Source: Pseudomonadales bacterium
GTDB taxonomy: Bacteria; Pseudomonadota; Gammaproteobacteria; Pseudomonadales; Pseudohongiellaceae
Direction: 5' to 3'
Length of the DNA stretch: 34,851 nt
NCBI GenBank assembly: GCA_022819645.1
Contig: JAJEGU010000028.1
Coordinates: forward strand, 1 to 34,851
The position numbers were made by a program, and so were the translations under genes. The notes below the pieces were generated by a model. That model saw nothing but the letters and a program-made list of their open reading frames with translations. It was not told the DNA's origin and did not search any database. Below are positions 9,641 through 32,152 of this stretch, piece after piece; position 1 is the stretch's first letter, and each line of letters opens with the position of its first letter.

Positions 9641-10843
9641 TCAATGGGCTTGCGCCGCAAGATGCCGGGCGAGCAGGTCCTTGCCGTAGTCATTGCCATT
9701 GGGCGTTCTGACCACGGTGTGGATATGGTCCCGTGTCGGCACGCCGGGCGGGTTCGTGGTCAGGGTTCCCACGGGATTCTGGTGGTCGAATTCGATCAGG
9801 ATCACCGGGCTCTGAATGCGATAGTAGAACACCGCATCGTCCTCGGCGGCGCCGCGCCAGCCGAACCAGGTGTCGTCGACATGCTCGCCGATCTCTTCCA
9901 TGGTGACCGCGGCGTGGGGGTCGCGCAGATTGCCCACGTATTCGCGAATGAGGCCGAGCAGGGCGAGTTTCTGGCCGCTGTCGAATGCCGTCGCGCGAAT
10001 GCCTTCCGGGTCGAGCACGAGATTGTCCTGATTGCCCGCGGCGAGAAGATTGTTGCGCGTCTTGGCCGGATCGATGGTCGCCGCCGCCTGTTGTTCCGGG
10101 CGCAGGGACTGCATCAGCGCAAGGCCGAGATCCTGTTCCGCCTGCAGAATGGCGTTGCCGGCGTAGCGTCCCGAATCGGCCACCACCGGCTCGCCGCCCC
10201 AGAAGGACGGGGTCATGACCACCTGGTCGCCGAGCACGAAATAGTTGATCACCAGATGATGGCCTTCAAGCTGCCAGCCCCAGGGCTCGGTGGCGGAAGG
10301 CATGCCCATGAAGGTGAAATAGTACTTGTCCTCGTGATAGCGGATCGGCTCGCCGTTGATCTCGAACAGGGTCTGCTCGGTGCGCATGATGCCCCGGGTC
10401 TTGTCGACTCCCGCAGTGCTGAGCGACTGCTCCAGCAGACGCCAGGCGGCGGCTTTTTGCGCTTCGTTCATCTCTTCGAGGCTGACGCCCCGGCGGGCGA
10501 AGATACCCACGTCCACATTGGACCAGTCGCGCCATTCCGGGTCTTCCACGGCGAAGTGCGCCCGGCTCAATTCGCCGGTATCGAGAGTCGCCAGCATGGC
10601 CTCGGCGGCTTCCCGCACCGGCGCGGTGGAGACCCCGGTCTCGCGAACGGGATACAGCCCTTCGACAAGACCCTCGGAAGTCACCAGCCCGCGAAAGGGC
10701 TCGCCCAGGGCCCGGGCCGCCGAGCGCATGAAGTTCGACTTTTGCTCAAGCAGCGCCCGGGGATACTGGGACTGGGACCAGGAAAGCGAAAAGCCCAGCG
10801 CGAAAAATGCGGGCAGCAACAGGCAGAGGATTCTTTTCATCAC
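9641..10843 (-). CDS. DUF3500 family exported protein
   Basis: A 400-residue protein with a clear signal peptide (MKRILCLLLPAFFALGFSLSWSQ). It carries the DUF3500 hallmarks: WSNVDVGIFARRGVSLEEM, PWGWQLEGHHLVINYFVLGDQVVMTP, the FWGGEP stretch, and the histidine-rich C-terminus DHIHTVVRTPNGNDYG. The function of this family is not established. The GTG at 10843 sits eight bases after AAGGA; ATG at 10840 is the alternative. It is translationally coupled to the downstream GGT gene (TGA, two bases, ATG), and both are exported, so they may act together in the periplasm. Confidence 0.82.
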   Translation of the reverse strand: MMKRILCLLLPAFFALGFSLSWSQSQYPRALLEQKSNFMRSAARALGEPFRGLVTSEGLVEGLYPVRETGVSTAPVREAAEAMLATLDTGELSRAHFAVEDPEWRDWSNVDVGIFARRGVSLEEMNEAQKAAAWRLLEQSLSTAGVDKTRGIMRTEQTLFEINGEPIRYHEDKYYFTFMGMPSATEPWGWQLEGHHLVINYFVLGDQVVMTPSFWGGEPVVADSGRYAGNAILQAEQDLGLALMQSLRPEQQAAATIDPAKTRNNLLAAGNQDNLVLDPEGIRATAFDSGQKLALLGLIREYVGNLRDPHAAVTMEEIGEHVDDTWFGWRGAAEDDAVFYYRIQSPVILIEFDHQNPVGTLTTNPPGVPTRDHIHTVVRTPNGNDYGKDLLARHLAAQAH

Positions 10844-10932
10844 TGCATGCGTCCTTCACTGAATACGAAATCCCGAGGCTACCCCCTGCCGCCCGGATGC
10901 ACAAGCAGTTATCGGCAGCTATCGGAACTCCT

Positions 10933-11047
10933 GTCATTCCGCGTGCAGTCGCAGAATCTCATCGGGAGGCCACTGAGGGAGATTCCGCGACTACGCTTCG
11001 CTTCGCGCGGAATGACAGGAAGGTTGGAGCGCCAAAATGAGAATTGC
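10933..11047. repeat. Family B palindromic repeat with 27-bp tail
   Basis: The element opens GTCATTCCGCGTGCAG and closes CGCGCGGAATGAC at 11016, with GAATCTC and GAGATTC arms inside. It continues into a 27-base tail (11021-11047, from AGGTTGGAGCGCC to AATGAGAATTGC) that is identical at 18319-18345. The short open frame on the minus strand from 11176 runs into this repeat and takes its last residues from it. Confidence 0.8.
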
Positions 11048-11176
11048 CGGCGCGGAAGCCAGTGGCGGCACAATGATCGACCAGAGCTTTTCCAACCAGT
11101 CAGACCTGACTTTCTCCAAGTCTCTTTTGGTGGCTTTACCGGATTCGAGATTGCCCACCTTTGTATTCGATTCCAA
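10991..11176 (-). pseudogene. Possible small coiled-coil/membrane protein remnant
   Basis: A 61-codon frame begins MESNTKVGNLESGKATKRDL, with a charged helical stretch and then a hydrophobic segment (IIVPPLASAPAILILAL). Its C-terminal part is encoded by the family B repeat and its tail, so any original gene has been replaced from about 11047 leftward. It is not recognised. It may be a truncated membrane-anchored coiled-coil protein or simply a chance frame. Confidence 0.25.
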
Positions 11177-11298
11177 GTGGGGAAGCGCGCCGTGGCCACG
11201 GGAGGTTGCCCGGAATCAGTAACCCTTGATCAGGGTGTTCAGGATTTTTTCGCGCAAAGTCTGGTGTGCTGTCCCACAAGTTCGCCGCATTTCAGAGT

Positions 11299-11387
11299 GG
11301 TCCTGGAGCGTCAATGCAAGGCACCGCCCGCGGGCAATACCGGGAGTATTGCCAAGGGCGGCAACGCCGCGGTGGCGCTTCAGGACC
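11299..11387. repeat. Long imperfect hairpin upstream of the ATPase-PIN genes
   Basis: Nested arms pair around one centre: GGTCCTGGAGCG (11299-11310) with CGCTTCAGGACC (11376-11387), 11 of 12 positions; CACCGC (11322-11327) with GCGGTG (11369-11374); and GGCAATAC (11333-11340) with GTATTGCC (11346-11353), perfect. It lies upstream of the proposed promoter at 11426-11454, so it is not part of the ATPase leader. It could be a small structured RNA or a non-autonomous element. No gene was recognised in 11180-11425; a minus-strand frame ending ILNTLIKGY at 11216 matches nothing I know. Confidence 0.65.
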
Positions 11388-11425
11388 GCTCCCGAAGGGC
11401 GCGTCCCCCGCGGCGCGTGGCCGCG

Positions 11426-11454
11426 TTGCGCCAGCTTCCCCTTTTTGCCATAAT
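11426..11454 (+). promoter_or_regulatory. Putative sigma-70 promoter of the ATPase-PIN genes
   Basis: TTGCGC (11426-11431) and CATAAT (11449-11454, five of six to consensus) are separated by exactly 17 bases. Transcription would start near 11461, leaving a leader of about 20 bases with GGGA at 11469-11472, seven bases before the ATG at 11480. The -35 box matches only its first three bases, so the call is tentative. Confidence 0.4.
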
Positions 11455-11479
11455 GCCGCGTCTTTCGTGGGATACTCAA

Positions 11480-12844
11480 ATGCTTAAAAATCTGCATATC
11501 GAGAATTTCAAAGCTTGGCGGAAAGTAGAGTTAGAGTTAGCGCCAGTGACTGGATTCTTCGGAACTAACAGTTCCGGGAAGAGTAGCTTGATTCAATTCC
11601 TGTTGATGCTGAAACAAACCAAGAATGCGACTGATCGCAGGATAGTGCTCGATTTTGGTGGTGATTCAGGGCTTGTGAACCTTGGCACATACAAAGATGT
11701 AATCCATGATCAAGATACCAATAGTTTCATGTGTTGGTCGTTTGAGTGGTCGTTGCCAGAGCCATTGAGGATTCGCAAGCCAGGAGGGAAGAAGGATGAA
11801 GTTTTGTTTAGAGGAAATTCTTTGGAATCAGGTTGCTTAATAGGGGTTTTGCCTCGCAGCCTTCTGTTCCCTTACGAACTATTTTATAAGTTCGATGATA
11901 CGAAGTTTCGCTTAAAGCACATTGATGAAAGTGCCGGCAACAAATTTGAATTAACCGCAGAAGGGTCAAATTTTGAGTTTAAACGAAATAGAGGCAGAGC
12001 ATGGAAACTCCCATCCCCAATCAAGACCCACTTGTTTCCTGATGAAACGAGGTATTTTTTTCAAAACGCAGACTTCCTAGGCGAATTTGAATTTGCTTAT
12101 GAGGAATTCATGGATTCGATTTACTATCTCGGGCCATTACGTGAACATCCACAAAGAGAATATCAATGGACAGGAACAGCTCGTTCCGATGTAGGAAAAC
12201 GAGGTGAATTCGCTATAGATGCAATTCTTGCTGCAACTAGAGATAGGGAGGAAAGAAGTCTGGGATATAGAAAATGGAGGATGGATTTCCAGAAGATGAT
12301 TGCATACTGGCTATGGAAACTAGGTCTGGTTGGGGGTTTCCGAATTGAAGAGATTAAGGAAGGCTCAAACCTGTATCGAGCCTTGGTGAAGATGCCTGGT
12401 TCGAAAGTAGAAGTGACATTGACAGATGTTGGATTTGGCGTATCCCAAGTCCTGCCAGTTCTGGTGCTTCTTTACTACGTACCTGAGGGCTCTACAATCT
12501 TGATGGAACAACCGGAAATACATCTCCACCCGGCAGTGCAAAGTGGTTTGGCGGACCTTATGTTGAATGTTGCTGAGGCACGTAATCTTCAGATTATCGT
12601 GGAAAGTCATAGTGAACATCTTTTGAGACGGTTTCAACGTCGAGTGGCCGAAGGAGATACTTCATCCGAGAAAGTAAAGCTGTACTTTGTTTCCGCGAAA
12701 AATGGTGTGGCAAAGGCTAATGACCTTAATCTCAATGAGTGGGGGGAGATTGAAAATTGGCCTATTAATTTTTTTGGAGATGAAATGGGAGAGATCGCAG
12801 CGATAGCAGAATCTTCCATCAGCAGGAAACTGGAGAGTTCTTGA
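11480..12844 (+). CDS. AAA family ATPase with DUF3696-type C-terminus
   Basis: A 454-residue ABC/SMC-like ATPase opening with MLKNLHIENFKAW. Walker A is GTNSSGKSS (residues 28-36), the Walker B region is ILMEQPEIHLHP (about 340-351), and the sensor-like VESHSEHLL is at about 374-382. The tail (NEWGEIENWPINFFGDEMGEI) fits the DUF3696 end. It has no TOPRIM domain, unlike OLD nucleases. The row 11941-12000 has only 22 of 60 G/C bases, while 14281-14340 has 47, which suggests horizontal transfer. The stop overlaps the next start as TGATG, so the two proteins are probably made in concert. Related ATPases act as sensors or scaffolds in phage-defence pairs; a defence role here is inference. Confidence 0.88.
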   Translation: MLKNLHIENFKAWRKVELELAPVTGFFGTNSSGKSSLIQFLLMLKQTKNATDRRIVLDFGGDSGLVNLGTYKDVIHDQDTNSFMCWSFEWSLPEPLRIRKPGGKKDEVLFRGNSLESGCLIGVLPRSLLFPYELFYKFDDTKFRLKHIDESAGNKFELTAEGSNFEFKRNRGRAWKLPSPIKTHLFPDETRYFFQNADFLGEFEFAYEEFMDSIYYLGPLREHPQREYQWTGTARSDVGKRGEFAIDAILAATRDREERSLGYRKWRMDFQKMIAYWLWKLGLVGGFRIEEIKEGSNLYRALVKMPGSKVEVTLTDVGFGVSQVLPVLVLLYYVPEGSTILMEQPEIHLHPAVQSGLADLMLNVAEARNLQIIVESHSEHLLRRFQRRVAEGDTSSEKVKLYFVSAKNGVAKANDLNLNEWGEIENWPINFFGDEMGEIAAIAESSISRKLESS

Positions 12845-13335
12845 TGACCGATTTTGTGGTAGACACGAACGTCGCGGTTGTAGCAAATGGCAAGAACACT
12901 CATACTGATAAGCAATGCCAGTTGAGATGCATAAGAAAGCTAAATGCTGTAGTGGATCAAGATGTAATTGTAATTGATGATGCCGGCTTAATCCTGAATG
13001 AGTATAAGGGTTACCTTAGTTTCTCAGGCTCACCCGGCGTAGGAGATAAGTTCTTCAAACACATCGTAGACAATCAGTGGCAGAAAAAAGTAAAGAGAGT
13101 AACCATAACTGAATCTTCTGACCCCACTAGAGGTTTCAAAGTGTTGCCGAGCAACACTTTTGATCGTTCTGACAGGAAATTTCTGGCTGTCGCAGTTGTT
13201 TCCGGCGCAACAGTAGTTAACGCAATTGACAGTGATTGGACGAAAAACAAAATGCTCATGTCCCAAGTAGGAGTGAGAGTCGAGGAACTCTGCCCTCAGG
13301 TTATCAAGCGTAAATTGCTCAGAGACGAAAATTGA
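12844..13335 (+). CDS. PIN-like nuclease paired with the AAA ATPase
   Basis: A 163-residue protein with a PIN-like layout. FVVDTNVAVVANG opens strand 1 with Asp7 and Asn9. VIVIDDAGLILNEY supplies Glu53. FDRSDRKFLAVAV supplies Asp110, and NAIDSDW supplies Asp129/Asp131. These are the positions where PIN RNases carry their metal-binding acids, so an active ribonuclease is likely, though the overall family was not recognised by name. Translation starts on the A of the ATPase stop codon (TGATG), and it shares the ATPase's AT-rich composition. Unlike VapC it has no VapB-type antitoxin; its partner is the ATPase. RNA or DNA as substrate is not decided by sequence. Confidence 0.75.
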   Translation: MTDFVVDTNVAVVANGKNTHTDKQCQLRCIRKLNAVVDQDVIVIDDAGLILNEYKGYLSFSGSPGVGDKFFKHIVDNQWQKKVKRVTITESSDPTRGFKVLPSNTFDRSDRKFLAVAVVSGATVVNAIDSDWTKNKMLMSQVGVRVEELCPQVIKRKLLRDEN

Positions 13336-13354
13336 CTGCGAACGTGGAACTGCA

Positions 13355-14017
13355 TTGACTCTAAAATACCCAAAAACGCTCTCATGGCCCTGGTCGCCCG
13401 GTATCGGTCGACAGAGCAGGGTTCATCAGGAACCACTTCGCTTTGTAGGTTCTCCCGTAGTCATAACGGAGAAACTGGACGGCGGTAATACTCTGCTCCA
13501 TAAGGGCAAGGTCTACGCCCGAAGCGTATCGGCCCCGAGCGAGGCGAAATGGTTCGCTATGGTCAAAAAGCACCATGCCTGGAAAGTGACCGAGCCCGAT
13601 GTCTATCTGTATGGCGAGGATATCTACGGCGTCCATAGCATCGCTTACGGTCCAGTACCCGAGGACAGGACGTTTTACGCTTTTGCAATTTGCGATGCCA
13701 CCGGCGCGTTCGCGCCTTTTTCCGAGGTGGAGACGTATGCACAGAGGCGTAATATACCGATGGTGCCGGTGCTGTTCCGGGGTACTTTCAGTTCGATCAA
13801 GGAGCTTCGGGCATTCATGGACAATGCGCACGGCGAAAGTTCGGTACTGGGTGGCGCACGCGAGGGAGTCGTGATTCGATTGGCCTGCGGATTCTCAACA
13901 CCGGATTTCCAGCATAGCGTTTGCAAGAGCGTTCGCGCCGGGCATGTGCGCTGTGATGAGCACTGGAGCAGAAACTGGCAGCCTTGTCCAATTTCTACCA
14001 AGCCCACGAATATCTGA
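13355..14017 (+). CDS. RNA ligase family protein (nucleotidyltransferase)
   Basis: A 220-residue ATP-dependent ligase-type protein. Motif I is EKLDGGN with the adenylated Lys40. The motif III region is YGEDIYGVHSIAY (Glu88), motif IV is EGVVIR (Glu170) and motif V includes Lys191 in CKSVRAGHV, followed by DEHW. The opening KYPKT..WPWSPG is typical of the stand-alone bacterial/phage RNA_ligase family. The start is a TTG at 13355 with GGA six bases upstream; no ATG fits. It follows the PIN gene by 19 bases, but its base composition (36 of 60 G/C at 13501-13560) matches the host and not the ATPase/PIN pair, so it may have had a separate origin. It would seal broken RNA; a link to the PIN nuclease is inferred. 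Confidence 0.8.
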   Translation: MTLKYPKTLSWPWSPGIGRQSRVHQEPLRFVGSPVVITEKLDGGNTLLHKGKVYARSVSAPSEAKWFAMVKKHHAWKVTEPDVYLYGEDIYGVHSIAYGPVPEDRTFYAFAICDATGAFAPFSEVETYAQRRNIPMVPVLFRGTFSSIKELRAFMDNAHGESSVLGGAREGVVIRLACGFSTPDFQHSVCKSVRAGHVRCDEHWSRNWQPCPISTKPTNI

Positions 14018-14070
14018 ATGGCGTGGGCATTCACCCAATCGCGGGAATTCGTCTATGCAGCCTGATTCGC

Positions 14071-15450
14071 TCACTCACTCATCACCGCCGCCAGTTTCTC
14101 CTCGGTGCGCCAGTTACCGCCTTGCAGGCGGGAGACGTAGACGATGGCGATGGCGAAGACCAGGAGGGTGAAGACGATCCAGGATATTTCGGCGCTCAAT
14201 TGCCAGACCAGGATGATGAAGTACTGGATCACGAGCATGGCCCAGTGCAGGGCGGTGGAGGCGAACATCAGCCAGCGGGTGTCGCCGGCGCCGCGCAGCA
14301 CGCCGCCGGCCACGAGGCAGGTGGCGTCGGCCATGGTGTAGCAGGACAGTCCGATCATCATGAAACCCGCCAGGGCGCGGATTTCGGCGAAGTCTCCGCC
14401 GGGTGGCGCGAACAGTTCCACCAGCGGGAAACGGAACAGCACGTAGACGATGGCCAGGGTCGCCGAATAGCACAGTCCGAGGGCGAATCCCGCGCGGATG
14501 ACCTGGTTGGTCTGTTCCATGTCGCCGGCGCCGACGAAGCGCCCGATCATGCTGATCACGGCGATGTTGAGACCGATCATGGGCACGAAGGAGAGAATGT
14601 CCCAGTTGAAGACGATGGCCGCCGAAGCGCCCGCGGCCACGCCATAGGACTGGAACATCAGCAGGAACAGGTTGAAGGCCGCCACATTGAGAAACAGTTC
14701 CACCGCCGAGGGCAGACCGAGGCGCAGGTAGCGGCGGGTGATGCCCGCATCGAAGCGGAACGAGCGCCTCACCCGGAAGCGCGCGCGATGCTCCCGGTGA
14801 AAATAGAAGCAGGCGAACAGGCCCAGGGAAAACAGCGTCGCCAGATTGGTGCTGATTGCGGCCCCGGCGATGCCCATGGCGGGTAGGCCGAGATGACCGA
14901 AGATCATGACGTAGGCCAGCGGCACATTGAGCAGCAGGCCGCCGATGTCGCAGATCATCACCACCCGGGTGCGGCCGATGCCGGCGAAGTAGGAAGAAAA
15001 GCAGGTTTTCGCCAGGGGCAGGATCACTCCGGCCATGAGGATCAGGTAGTAGACGCGCTCCAGCTCCACGAGTTGCGGGTCGTGGTCGAGCAGGTTGAAC
15101 AGCTCCAGCACGAATACCGTGATCAGCGCCAGGGGAAGCAGGCTGGCCACGGACATGATCAGGCCCTGGGTGACGACCTTGCTGCATTTGTGCAGCTCGC
15201 CGGCGCCGAAATACTGTGCCGCCAGGGCATTGCTATAGGAAAACAGCCCCGTGAAAAAGCAGAACGAGAAAAACGCCCCCACGCCGCCGCCGAGCCCGGC
15301 GGCCATATGGGTGGAACTGACCTGGGAGAGGAAATAGCGGTCGGTGAAAATCATCAGGGCGAAGGTGCCCTGGGACACCACCATCGGAAGGGCGATGCGG
15401 ACCATTTCCCGGAACGTATCCCGGTCGAGATGGAAAAGCCTTGCTTGCAT
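14071..15450 (-). CDS. MATE family efflux transporter
   Basis: A 459-residue inner-membrane antiporter with about twelve transmembrane helices, exporting drugs or metabolites against H+ or Na+. The opening FREMVRIALPMVVSQGTFALMIFTDRYFLSQV is the characteristic first helix pair of MATE/NorM proteins, and the second half starts with the similar RRYLRLGLPSAVELFLNVAAFNLF, showing the internal duplication. It lies 80 bases downstream of the DUF418 gene on the same strand and may share its transcript. It is convergent with the RNA ligase gene, 53 bases apart. Substrate unknown. Confidence 0.9.
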   Translation of the reverse strand: MQARLFHLDRDTFREMVRIALPMVVSQGTFALMIFTDRYFLSQVSSTHMAAGLGGGVGAFFSFCFFTGLFSYSNALAAQYFGAGELHKCSKVVTQGLIMSVASLLPLALITVFVLELFNLLDHDPQLVELERVYYLILMAGVILPLAKTCFSSYFAGIGRTRVVMICDIGGLLLNVPLAYVMIFGHLGLPAMGIAGAAISTNLATLFSLGLFACFYFHREHRARFRVRRSFRFDAGITRRYLRLGLPSAVELFLNVAAFNLFLLMFQSYGVAAGASAAIVFNWDILSFVPMIGLNIAVISMIGRFVGAGDMEQTNQVIRAGFALGLCYSATLAIVYVLFRFPLVELFAPPGGDFAEIRALAGFMMIGLSCYTMADATCLVAGGVLRGAGDTRWLMFASTALHWAMLVIQYFIILVWQLSAEISWIVFTLLVFAIAIVYVSRLQGGNWRTEEKLAAVMSE

Positions 15451-18159: not shown

Positions 18160-18367
18160 GCAATTCTCATTATGGCAATGGGCGCGCCCATATCGATCAT
18201 CCCGCGCGCAGTCGCGGGGTGGGGCCCGACCGGCGTAGCCGCGCCAGGGAAGGCATGCACCCTCACACAGAATCCCCAAAGAGATTCCGCGACTGCGCTT
18301 CGCTTCGCGCGGAATGACAGGTTGGAGCGCCAAAATGAGAATTGCTGGCTCATTATGGGACACCCAT
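18160..18367. repeat. Family B repeat with inverted outer ends
   Basis: A GC-rich palindromic core (about 18196-18318, closing CGCGCGGAATGAC) is followed by the 27-base tail shared with 11021-11047. The left outer flank has GCAATTCTCATTATGGC (from 18164) and the right flank the inverted AATGAGAATTGC, so the unit has terminal inverted repeats like a miniature element. ATGGGACACCCAT at 18355-18367 is a separate small palindrome also found at 31814 and 31933. No gene is supported between 18031 and 18546. Confidence 0.65.
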
Positions 18368-24881: not shown

Positions 24882-25043
24882 GTCATTCTGCGCGTAGTCG
24901 CGGAATCTCCCTGGAGAGGCCACCACGCGTGAATCTGCAACAAAATGGCAGGATTGCCATTTTGGACGTCGCACAGCGACGCCCCGCAGGAGTGAGGGGC
25001 ATGGATGCCCCGAATCACTTCGCTTCGCTACGAGCAGAATGAC
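24882..25043. repeat. Expanded family B repeat abutting the amidase start
   Basis: The ends are GTCATTCTGCGCGTAG and AGCAGAATGAC, as in family B, but the inside is longer and holds extra hairpins: AAAATGGCA/TTGCCATTTT (from about 24943) and GGGGCAT/ATGCCCC (near 24997-25012). The last base lies directly before the ATG of the amidase gene at 25044, so the whole translation-initiation region of that gene is repeat sequence. Confidence 0.75.
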
Positions 25044-26600
25044 ATGAAAGCGGTCAGGCGCCAAAGCGGCGGTTACTGGCGACGAAGAGATTTTCTTGCC
25101 ACCGGCATTCACACCGGGCTGGCTGCCCTGGCGCTGAGCGGCGCGGCGCGGCGCGCTTTCGCGGCGGCCCTGCCCGCGGATATCACCGGCTTTTCCGCGC
25201 TGGAGCTGTCCACCGCCATCGCCAGCCGGGAAGTGGGCTGCGTGGAAGTCATGCAAGCCTATCTCGCGCGCATCCACCGCCTCAATCCCGCCTTCAACGC
25301 CATTATCGGCATGTTGCCCGACGAGCAATGCCTCGCCCTCGCGGACACCGCCGACGCCGAACTCGCAAGAGGCGAACACCGGGGCTGGATGCACGGCATG
25401 CCCCATGCGGTGAAAGACCTGACGCCCGCCGCGGGCCTGCCCTATACCAGCGGCTCGCCGATGTTCCGGGATCGCATCGCCGAGCAGGATGGCGCCGTGG
25501 CCGCGGCCATGCGCGCCGCCGGGGCGATCTTCATCGGCAAGACCAACGTCCCCGAATTCGGGCTCGGTTCGCAATCCTACAACCCGGTCTGGGGCGCCAC
25601 CGGCTGCGCCTACAATCCGGAACTGACCAGCGGCGGCAGCAGCGGCGGCGCGGCCTGCGGCATGGCGACCCAAATGCTGCCCATCGCCGATGGCAGCGAC
25701 ATGATGGGTTCCCTGCGCAATCCCGGCGCTTTCAATAACGTCATCGGCTTTCGCCCCAGCGCCGGGCTGGTCAGCGGCGACGATCCATTCTCCCGGGCGC
25801 TTTCCACCTCCGGGCCCATGGGCAGAAACAGCGCCGATACCATCCGCCTCCTGCATACCCTGGCGTCGCCCCCCGGCCCGGAGCAGCCGGCGGCATTGCG
25901 GAACGCCCTGGCCGGCGACAGCGAATACCGGCCGCTGGAACTTGCCGGCCTGCGCATCGGCTGGATGGGCAGCTATGAGGGCTATCTCGCCGTGGAGCCA
26001 GGCATACTCGGGCTCTGCGAAGCCAATCTTGCCGCTCTCGAAGCCGAAGGCGCCATCGTCGAGCCTGTCATGCCGCGCTTCGACATGGCGGAACTGTTCC
26101 AATGCTGGCTCGATCTGCGCAACCAAGGCCGCATCGGCATGCGCGAGTATTACGAAAATGCCGATACGCGCCCGCTGCTCAAGCCGGAACTCGTCTGGGA
26201 AATCGAGATTGGCTACGAACTCGGCGCCGACGACATCTATCGGGCCGATGCGATCAGGCGGCGCTGGTACGCCGAAATCAACCGGCTGTTCGGCGATCAT
26301 GACTTCCTGGTATTGCCCACCGCCCAGGTTTTTCCCTTCCCCAAGACCACACCCTGGCCCGCGGAAATCGACGGCAGGACCATGGACACCTACCACCGCT
26401 GGATGGAAGTCGTCATCGGCGGCAGTCTGGCCGGCATCCCGGTGGTGAATCTGCCGGTGGGCTTCGACGGGCGCGGGCGACCCATGGGCATGCAGGTTAT
26501 GGGGCCGTTCGCCAGGGACCGCAAGGTGCTGGAATTCTCCCTCGCCTATGAGCGGATTACCGACCACCTTGGCCGCCGGCCGGAACTGCCGGCAGCTTAG
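25044..26600 (+). CDS. Tat-exported amidase (amidase signature family)
   Basis: A 518-residue amide hydrolase. The N-terminus has a twin-arginine signal (RRRDFLATGIH, residues 13-23, then a hydrophobic stretch ending AAALPA), so it is exported folded. The Ser-cisSer-Lys triad is visible: Lys in HAVKDL (about residue 123), the GGSSGG loop (about 195-201) and Ser in GSDMMGSLRNPG (about 216-226). The usual GSDxGGS reads GSDMMGS, a small deviation. Substrate cannot be told. No ribosome site is seen, because a repeat fills the bases up to the ATG. A longer frame starting at 25005 would be encoded by that repeat and is rejected. Confidence 0.9.
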   Translation: MKAVRRQSGGYWRRRDFLATGIHTGLAALALSGAARRAFAAALPADITGFSALELSTAIASREVGCVEVMQAYLARIHRLNPAFNAIIGMLPDEQCLALADTADAELARGEHRGWMHGMPHAVKDLTPAAGLPYTSGSPMFRDRIAEQDGAVAAAMRAAGAIFIGKTNVPEFGLGSQSYNPVWGATGCAYNPELTSGGSSGGAACGMATQMLPIADGSDMMGSLRNPGAFNNVIGFRPSAGLVSGDDPFSRALSTSGPMGRNSADTIRLLHTLASPPGPEQPAALRNALAGDSEYRPLELAGLRIGWMGSYEGYLAVEPGILGLCEANLAALEAEGAIVEPVMPRFDMAELFQCWLDLRNQGRIGMREYYENADTRPLLKPELVWEIEIGYELGADDIYRADAIRRRWYAEINRLFGDHDFLVLPTAQVFPFPKTTPWPAEIDGRTMDTYHRWMEVVIGGSLAGIPVVNLPVGFDGRGRPMGMQVMGPFARDRKVLEFSLAYERITDHLGRRPELPAA

Positions 26601-26716: not shown

Positions 26717-26797
26717 TCATTCCGCGCGCAGTCGCGGAATCTCATGAACCCGGCACTGCCATTCGACGGGAGATTCCGCGACTGCGCGCGGAATGAC
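26717..26797. repeat. Family B palindromic repeat before the hydrolase gene
   Basis: TCATTCCGCGCGCAGTCGCG at the left and CGCGACTGCGCGCGGAATGAC at the right enclose a spacer (ATGAACCCGGCA.TGCCATTCGACGG) that is almost identical in the copy at 32049-32140. The repeat keeps an open frame upstream of the hydrolase start at 26819 and reads as the familiar spurious peptide FRAQSRNL. Confidence 0.85.
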
Positions 26798-26818
26798 GGG
26801 GGGTGGGTGGGCGGCGCC

Positions 26819-28750: not shown

Positions 28751-28762
28751 TTCATAATCACT

Positions 28763-28794
28763 GTCATTCTGCGCGAAGCGAAACACCCCCTTCC
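28763..28794. repeat. Partial family B copy
   Basis: GTCATTCTGCGCGAAGCGAA lacks the second arm and is followed directly by the two tandem units described next. It looks like a broken first copy. Confidence 0.6.
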
Positions 28795-29146
28795 GTCATT
28801 CTGCGCGAAGCGAAGCGTAGTCGCAGAATCCCATGCGGAAGCCACCCAACGAGATTCTGCGACTGCGCGCAGAATGACAGTAGCGTCGCGCTTCCCGGAC
28901 TGTGCGCAGAATGACATTACCCTGTAGCCTTACTTGAAGAACTCCACGTAGAAGCGCAGCGCCCCTTTCCGTCATTCTGCGCGAAGCGAAGCGTAGTCGC
29001 AGAATCCCATGCGGAAGCCACCCAACGAGATTCCGCGACTGCGCGCGGAATGACAGTAGCGTCGCGCTTTCCGGACTGTGCGTGGAATGACGTTCCCCTG
29101 TCACCTTATCTGAGGAACTCCACGTAGAAGCGCAGTTTGCCGAGGG
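28795..29146. repeat. Two tandem 176-bp units, each a family B repeat plus gene tail
   Basis: Unit 1 (28795-28970) and unit 2 (28971-29146) match with a period of exactly 176 bases. Each contains a family B palindrome (GTCATTCTGCGCGAAGCG to GGAATGAC or AGAATGAC) and then a copy of the last 30 bases of the DUF1971 gene (28929-28959 and 29105-29135). Unit 2's gene tail belongs to the live gene; unit 1's tail (encoding LRFYVEFFK and a stop) is a duplicated scrap. A tandem duplication is the simplest explanation. Confidence 0.88.
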
Positions 29147-31747: not shown

Positions 31748-32152
31748 CGGCCAATCACCCGAGGCAAAGGTCTTGGCCGAATATACCCAAAATCACCTGG
31801 GGCGGCTAACTGCATGGGACACCCACCATCGGAACAACTGTCATTCTGCGCACAGTCGCAAAATCTCAAGCAGTACCCTCCCAGCGAGATCCTGCGACTT
31901 CGCGCAGGATGACGAGAATGAACGAGGCCTGCATGGGACACCCATTGTTGTCGGTTCCCAGGAGCCTGCGCCGTAGGAATTCGCGAAAGCGAAAATTCGC
32001 TATCGCCGCGCCCCTGGCCGGTCGATTGAGGCGAACGCCCCGCTCCCCGTCATTCCGCGCGAAGCGAAGCGGAGTCGCGGAATCTCATGAACCCGGCATT
32101 GCCATTCGACGGGAGATTCCGCGACTGCGCGCGGAATGACAGGAGAAGATGC
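31748..32152. other. Repeat cluster between dehydrogenase and surface protein genes
   Basis: No gene is supported. A family B copy (31840-31913) is flanked on both sides by the same 16 bases, CTGCATGGGACACCCA (31810-31825 and 31929-31944). A half family A element follows at 31961-32036, truncated at its centre (ends GATTGAGGCGAA). A second family B copy (32049-32140) ends 12 bases before the stop of the giant surface protein. The copy shares its spacer with 26717-26797. Confidence 0.8.

Follow-up and report, generated by a model that had tools for sequence, protein, structure and literature searches.

A ligase-bearing form of the candidate defence system HEC-03 in a Pseudohongiellaceae genome

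Three adjacent genes and their predicted products

The 34,851-nucleotide stretch of DNA analysed here (the window; contig JAJEGU010000028.1 of assembly GCA_022819645.1, from a Pseudomonadales bacterium of the family Pseudohongiellaceae) carries three consecutive genes on its forward strand, for an ATPase, a PIN-fold nuclease and an RNA ligase. The first (11480..12844), recognized from the list of open reading frames and from profile matches, encodes an OLD/ABC-type ATPase of 454 amino acids with a DUF3696 tail, corresponding to HEC-03B of the PADLOC database. It begins with an ATG at 11480, and its stop codon (12842-12844) overlaps the ATG (12844) of the second gene as TGATG. The latter might instead start from a TTG at 12841. 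The second gene (12844..13335), assigned from the list of open reading frames, a HEC-03A match and the predicted fold of its 163-amino acid product, encodes the PIN-fold nuclease and stops at 13333-13335. After 19 bases, a TTG at 13355 starts the third gene (13355..14017), whose stop ends at 14017 and whose 220-amino acid product is identified by Pfam, PHROG and its predicted fold as an ATP-dependent RNA ligase comprising the nucleotidyltransferase domain only. Strand, overlap and spacing are all as described in an earlier reading of this DNA made from the letters alone (the sequence-only reading). On sequence comparison the three are real genes, and chance open reading frames are excluded because they have family matches, homologues in the same order and purifying selection acting on them. 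By the same kind of evidence, the ATPase and PIN genes are the PADLOC candidate defence system HEC-03, and the trio is its ligase-bearing form.

The ATPase matches HEC-03B over residues 1-452 (model positions 1-454 of 458, E-value 4.8e-195), with Pfam matches to AAA_15 (2.4e-27), AAA_21 (2.5e-19) and DUF3696 (2.3e-7). Among PADLOC models of other systems, NsnB follows at an E-value of 7.2e-64, and the two AriA models (8.4e-31 and 5.2e-20) rank well behind HEC-03B, NsnB and PDC-M55A. The protein has a Walker A motif (GTNSSGKSS), a signature-like motif (GFGVSQ) and a Walker B motif with E343-Q344, in which Gln occupies the position of the catalytic Glu. This Gln is a feature of the family, found in 85 of the 89 alignment rows with letters at this column, the window's included. 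A Glu to Gln change at this position is the usual laboratory means of trapping ABC ATPases with ATP. A PHROG profile of unknown function, phrog_21420 (654 positions), also matches the ATPase (E-value 7.1e-69, best stretch at profile positions 392-640) and may stand for HEC-03-like ATPases carried by phages and extended at the N terminus.

The second protein matches HEC-03A over residues 4-153 (model positions 3-154 of 159, E-value 1.5e-62), its sole PADLOC match at an E-value of 1, and in Pfam it has a sub-threshold PIN_3 match alone (0.025). An AlphaFold2 model with a predicted local distance difference test (pLDDT) score of 95.8 has VapC and protein-only RNase P among its top fold matches. 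The folds of this protein and of the ligase are given as predicted because sequence searches of solved structures yielded no credible relative for either, the top results for the PIN protein being de novo TIM barrels, a prolyl isomerase and SecA. In the 90-row PIN alignment, D7, E53, D110 and D129 are kept in 88, 89, 90 and 89 rows, the rest being gaps except for one R at E53, and the set of conserved acids comprises D7, D45, E53, D107, D110 and D129. The second protein is thus predicted to be a PIN-fold nuclease with acidic metal-binding residues, and the concern that it might fold as a non-nuclease is answered by its predicted fold and the retained acids. A VapBC toxin-antitoxin pair was considered and rejected, as no small antitoxin gene adjoins the PIN gene, whose direct neighbours encode the 454-amino acid ATPase and the ligase.

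The third protein matches the Pfam family RNA_ligase (PF09414, E-value 5.7e-21) and two PHROG families, namely phrog_34045 of unknown function (1.3e-33, at positions 7-206 of 219) and the RNA ligase family phrog_24030 (2.8e-31, at positions 134-332 of 342). Its model (pLDDT 87.2) has a fold like that of T4 Rnl2 and other RNA ligases. The expected motifs are present, with E39-K40-L-D42-G43 containing the Lys nucleophile of KxDG, E88 in motif III, E170-G171 in motif IV and K191 in motif V. K40, E88, E170 and K191 are kept in 47, 47, 46 and 46 of the 47 ligase rows, and the single row without letters at E170 and K191 fits locus L084, where the ligase is cut by the contig end. The sequence-only reading had taken all key residues of the trio to be intact, which stands for these four ligase residues and for D7, E53, D110 and D129 of the PIN protein; it fails for PIN D131 (D in 44 rows, K in 42) and for the non-canonical Walker B motif. 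Its description of the ligase gene as host-like in base composition is also contradicted, since the GC content at third codon positions is 0.61 in the ligase gene, far from the 0.81-0.86 of three flanking genes. The value differs as well from the 0.41-0.45 of the ATPase and PIN genes, which leaves room for a different earlier history of the ligase.

The trio as a unit and its two ligase lineages

The trio lies in a 3227-bp interval (10844..14070), delimited by comparison with trio-free loci, between a DUF3500 gene on the left (9641..10843, reverse strand, Pfam DUF3500 4.4e-101) and a MATE transporter gene on the right (14071..15450, reverse strand, Pfam MatE 1.4e-35). Within the genus, the PIN gene was found in this genome and in three of 60 congeners. 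The same four, of 61 genomes, have the ligase, and each carries the trio next to the MATE gene, at a shared site. The MATE gene gave 53 matches in 52 of the 61 genomes, and 30 MATE loci were compared: four hold the trio, 20 have the DUF3500 and MATE genes about 68-402 bp apart and are trio-free, and six are without a full DUF3500 gene in the stretch. In one trio-free relative (L144), the DNA resumes at about 10911 and 14066 of the window. Because the site is filled in some congeners and empty in others, one block with all three genes is, by this comparison, what arrived here or was lost elsewhere. The doubt of the sequence-only reading that the ligase might be an older neighbour is contradicted by its occurrence in the same four genomes and by the empty site at 20 loci. 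In another trio-bearing genome (G030, locus L016), only the first 25 DUF3500 residues remain beside the trio, the site having decayed there.

All three genes are under purifying selection, the ratio of nonsynonymous to synonymous substitution rates (omega) being 0.11-0.20 in all 16 pairwise comparisons with a synonymous divergence (dS) above 0.1. The ATPase gives values of 0.11-0.19 and the ligase of 0.15-0.20 (six pairs each), the PIN gene of 0.15-0.16 (four pairs); two other PIN pairs, with dS below 0.03, gave omega of 0 and 0.456.

Homologues of the PIN protein were collected from plasmids (11 records, five fetched), genus relatives, one genome collection (the best 80 of 173 relatives) and viral contigs, where a scan with the PIN alignment gave one locus. 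After removal of duplicates (L001-L008 and L020-L022), 90 HEC-03-like loci were compared, some of which are near copies of one another (L011/L012, L070/L073 and others). An ATPase gene lies directly upstream of the PIN gene in all 90. An RNA ligase gene directly follows the PIN gene in 47, with -7 to +47 bp between the matched stretches, as judged by a profile built from trio ligases that could miss more distant ones. When 398 genomes of the same phylum were searched, as a second sample, with the PADLOC model itself, the PIN gene was found in 15, accompanied by the ATPase in 15 and by the ligase in 11; this sample overlaps the first in the genome of the window, G096 and L124 (identical to L087), and without these the ligase count is eight of 12. 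Homologues of the pair do, therefore, occur with the ligase, as a trio should. A further plasmid trio, from Tistrella, was found via its ligase. By record titles, trios are present in six phyla (Pseudomonadota, Acidobacteriota, Cyanobacteriota, Planctomycetota, Latescibacterota and Actinomycetota), mostly in metagenome-assembled genomes. A gene fusion suspected at L124 turned out to be merely an open reading frame. At two loci an HNH-nuclease gene occupies the slot of the ligase (L009 8538-9296, on an Acinetobacter soli plasmid, and L018 9581-10333, in a related genome), and a DNA methylase lies upstream of both, annotated in L009 and read by eye in L018.

The trio ligases fall into two types. 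Type A comprises nine loci (the window, its three congeners, four Acidobacteriota and one Arenicellales), and type B the other 38. In a ligase tree of 63 rows that includes phage, plasmid and bacterial ligases and omits the truncated L084 and the near-copy L102, a single clade for all trio ligases was rejected by the approximately unbiased (AU) test (p 9e-102). In a quick tree of the ATPase and PIN proteins, type A lies inside a 44-row clade whose other 35 rows are ligase-free (support 99), apart from the main type B clade, and one clade for all trios was again rejected (AU p 1.4e-4). A single origin of all trios is accordingly rejected on both trees, with the caution that long branches (L019, L013 and L040; L118 and L119) weaken details of both, and that the trees are unrooted, so that gain versus loss and the direction of transfer are not readable from them. 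Type A has as its sister a ligase encoded on a 204 kb viral contig (51% identity, support 100/99), the window ligase is 50-51% identical to the ligases of 204 and 360 kb viral contigs, and two megaphage ligases at 39% identity lie next to type A with weak support (86/46). On these comparisons, ligases of two separate lineages are found in the same slot after the PIN gene.

Relation to known systems and genomic setting

The sequence-only reading had offered the module as undescribed, which does not hold for the ATPase-PIN pair. Both window proteins match the HEC-03 models over nearly full length, in the gene order of their relatives, and OLD-type ATPases paired with HNH, PD-(D/E)XK or PIN nucleases are reported from 594 taxa in PMC12839542. 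The window ligase is extra to HEC-03 and, like two type B ligases, matches no PADLOC family. The term "RNA ligase" does not occur in the searched text of PMC12839542, and the available parts of PMC7824862, PMC3710099 and PMC11090510 contain no description of the ATPase-PIN-ligase combination. HEC-03 is named once in a survey (PMC13356809); our literature search found no report of its activity, and DUF3696 appears in open PubMed Central text in unrelated context only. We found no description of a ligase as a third HEC-03 member in open PubMed Central papers, and an earlier mention in older surveys is possible. It is the addition of the ligase, and not the pair itself, that would be new.

Among described systems, PARIS shares the pairing of an ATPase with a nuclease and has a probably related ATPase, AriA. 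It differs in that its nuclease AriB is a Toprim protein whereas a PIN protein is found here, in that a ligase is added here, and in that the window ATPase is far closer to HEC-03B; the window ATPase also has Gln for the Walker B catalytic Glu, in an alignment that does not include AriA itself. An AriB identity of the partner was rejected on its predicted PIN rather than Toprim fold and on the absence of any PADLOC match besides HEC-03A at an E-value of 1. Membership in Menshen, of which we take NsnB to be the ATPase, was also rejected: HEC-03B scores far higher than the NsnB model on the window ATPase, and the PIN protein and the ligase match no Nsn model at an E-value of 1. For the flanking DUF3500 and MATE genes, the models used were those of Pfam and NCBIfam.

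Cassettes of an RNA ligase with end-healing enzymes (Deinococcus radiodurans pMP1; L104) contain ligases of the same superfamily, the D. radiodurans protein being 32% identical to that of the window. Their ligase genes adjoin an AAA ATPase gene and a TIGR02452 gene, or a gene that we read as a putative HD-Pnkp, whereas the window ligase adjoins a nuclease gene. A ligase and Pnkp repair cassette was rejected for the window, where the direct neighbours of the ligase are the PIN and MATE genes, with no adjacent end-healing gene (the genome elsewhere was not searched). On pMP1, the ligase relative (L111 2501-5204) lies in an operon with the TIGR02452 and AAA ATPase genes. The nearest outside kin of the window ligase are those of viral contigs and jumbo phages, from which it differs in being linked to a host nuclease. 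According to PMC7824862, jumbo-phage RNA ligases are thought to reseal cut tRNA as counter-defence.

Defence genes lie around a number of relatives. Hand-picked trio flanks include GmrSD, a type I HsdS, a DUF1156 methylase, a SNF2 helicase, a CAP12/Pycsar TIR effector and GASH, and some relatives are on plasmids, including conjugative plasmids, or beside restriction genes. In PADLOC scans of two genes on each side, up to five members per family were found in 112 trio and 120 pair flanks (HmaB, five), the pair set including the two HNH loci; the trio set drew on 34 loci with two called genes on each side, of which 28 were scanned, and the window, L011 and L014-L016 were not used. The control, 105 proteins from six stretches of two genomes, gave at most one member per family, with 59 families matched once each, including NsnB/AriA- and DpdF-like models. 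The enrichment is merely indicative because PADLOC models also match outside known islands, the control being small and the gene calls rough.

One virus-labelled contig (L100, 2909-5501) holds a complete trio in a P2-like prophage or phage with portal, terminase and head-completion genes. This trio sits on the portal side, with an AbiJ_NTD3 gene and a DUF4145 gene as its neighbours. The P2 region bounded by the portal gene and gpA is a defence hotspot that contains old and tin (PMC9122126). The site of the L100 trio is probably this old/tin-type cargo site, by analogy of position, in a stretch that does not reach the gpA border.

The window's own scanned neighbours are housekeeping genes, namely those for TyrRS, gamma-glutamyltranspeptidase, DUF3500, MATE, DUF418, a TonB receptor and a PQQ dehydrogenase. 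A repeat about 100 bp long, which is dispersed in either orientation and looks like a repetitive extragenic palindrome (REP), occurs at 10926-11025, with partial copies near 18281-18321, 24882-25048, 26717-26800, 28761-29059 and 31838-32145 (matching pieces of 15-103 bp, 72-100% identity).

Possible roles of the ligase

Comparison and fold prediction give a unit with a patchy, mobile distribution, enzymes of predicted fold with conserved active-site residues, and two ligase lineages in one slot. To the sequence-only reading the trio was an ATPase-controlled RNase with a sealing enzyme; its unity is borne out by co-occurrence, the empty site and the two lineages, and phage defence, cleavage and sealing, together with the sensing, RNA target and end chemistry, are what we infer from there. 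We hold it to be about evenly balanced whether the three genes are one transferable operon that confers immunity through an ATPase-gated PIN RNase with built-in repair by the ligase. The ATP-bound ATPase would keep the PIN protein inactive, in the way that AriA restrains AriB in PARIS, until it senses a phage-made trigger; the freed PIN enzyme would then cut host RNA, most likely tRNA, and stop translation. The ends usually ascribed to PIN cleavage are a 5'-phosphate and a 3'-hydroxyl, and such ends would be expected here. A ligase of Rnl type could join them directly with ATP, needing no kinase or phosphatase. For AriB, which cuts tRNA, 3'-hydroxyl ends are shown and 5'-phosphate ends expected (PMC12409363). 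It is because PIN- and AriB-type ends are those that an Rnl-type ligase joins without end-healing that we favour break-and-reseal immunity, in which the ligase would reseal stray or post-infection cuts, raise the threshold of self-killing and let cells recover.

Several observations weigh against this reading. No defence genes were found among the window's scanned neighbours (most of them scanned with Pfam alone). No common third gene was recognized by eye in 41 of the 90 loci, three of which end 174, 381 and 619 bp past the PIN gene and are poorly judgeable; among these 41, L031 and L069, which are related, share a methylase-like gene, and the likewise related L049 and L053 another. The pair thus works without the ligase, which is, judging from these loci, optional to it, and at two of the 90 loci an HNH gene stands in its place. 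A ligase encoded elsewhere in pair-only genomes was looked for and mostly not found: an RNA_ligase match occurs in seven of 33 genomes at an E-value of 0.001 and passes the cut-off in four of them (of 41 pair-only loci 35 were entered, two of them in one genome), compared with 31 of 31 trio genomes, by construction (32 of 47 loci entered). Cutting would not, therefore, be so leaky as to make sealing obligatory, because most pair-only genomes supply no ligase in trans. Full-length Rnl5- and Rnl2-type ligases carry an additional OB or C-terminal RNA-binding domain; the 220-amino acid window ligase has neither and may be weak on its own. Further, RohQ, a cyclodehydratase, is among the structural matches of the PIN protein, so that PIN folds can be non-nucleases, and RNA rather than DNA as the PIN target is inferred and unproven.

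The ligase may tune or reverse the response, or it may be a second effector. As part of the attack, it would join wrong ends, circularize fragments or block the 5' ends of PIN-cut or phage RNA, making the damage irreversible. Adjacency and two lineages in one slot fit a co-effector equally well, the pair is kept in ligase-free genomes, so that a ligase may add potency, and the HNH gene in the same slot at two loci is likely a second effector. Nevertheless, we consider this unlikely, as the closest outside kin of the ligase are those of viral contigs, jumbo phages and bacterial repair cassettes, the jumbo-phage enzymes being thought to reseal tRNA (PMC7824862). It is more doubtful still that the trio has its main role outside defence and serves for regulated RNA processing or splicing by cutting and then ligating, as in tRNA splicing or by Ire1-RtcB. 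The fixed order of the cutting and sealing enzymes, the housekeeping genes around the window's trio and the use of the same site in four genomes would suit such a device, but the trio is patchy in its presence (four of 61 congeners; PIN in 15 of the 398 genomes of the phylum), trio relatives occur on conjugative plasmids and in a P2-like prophage, and ligase-free relatives exist.

A functional unit made up of the ATPase and the PIN protein alone, with the ligase as an unrelated RNA-repair gene beside it by chance, is largely contradicted and in our view very improbable. About half of the pairs are missing the ligase, whose base composition is unlike theirs, but two separate lineages occupy the same slot, the 57 other congeners searched without finding this ligase are likewise without the PIN gene, all three genes lie within one inserted interval, and the ligase is under purifying selection. 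Least probable of all is a PIN-fold protein that cuts DNA with a ligase acting on DNA or RNA-DNA nicks. The nucleotidyltransferase fold is common to DNA ligases (a putative DNA ligase at rank 11 of the structural matches, further ones from rank 28), but for both proteins RNA enzymes predominate among the top structural matches, and the Pfam family of the ligase, like one of its PHROG families, is one of RNA ligases.

Returning to ATPase-gated immunity with built-in repair, we suggest, tentatively and with somewhat less confidence than in the operon and its repair function, an immune system carrying its own RNA antidote, in which a ligase was taken up at least twice independently, that of the window being akin to ligases with which large viruses are believed to reverse the action of host RNases, and in which the shutdown would be reversible and tunable rather than suicidal. 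What is known of RNA repair in conflicts between phages and hosts concerns chiefly its use as a weapon by phages or in general responses to stress. If this suggestion is true, the action of some immune nucleases would be meant for reversal, a point of relevance to cell survival after leaky or transient activation, and a third gene would be added to HEC-03, an automatically annotated candidate system. The trio and pair-only forms of one system make the role of sealing directly testable.

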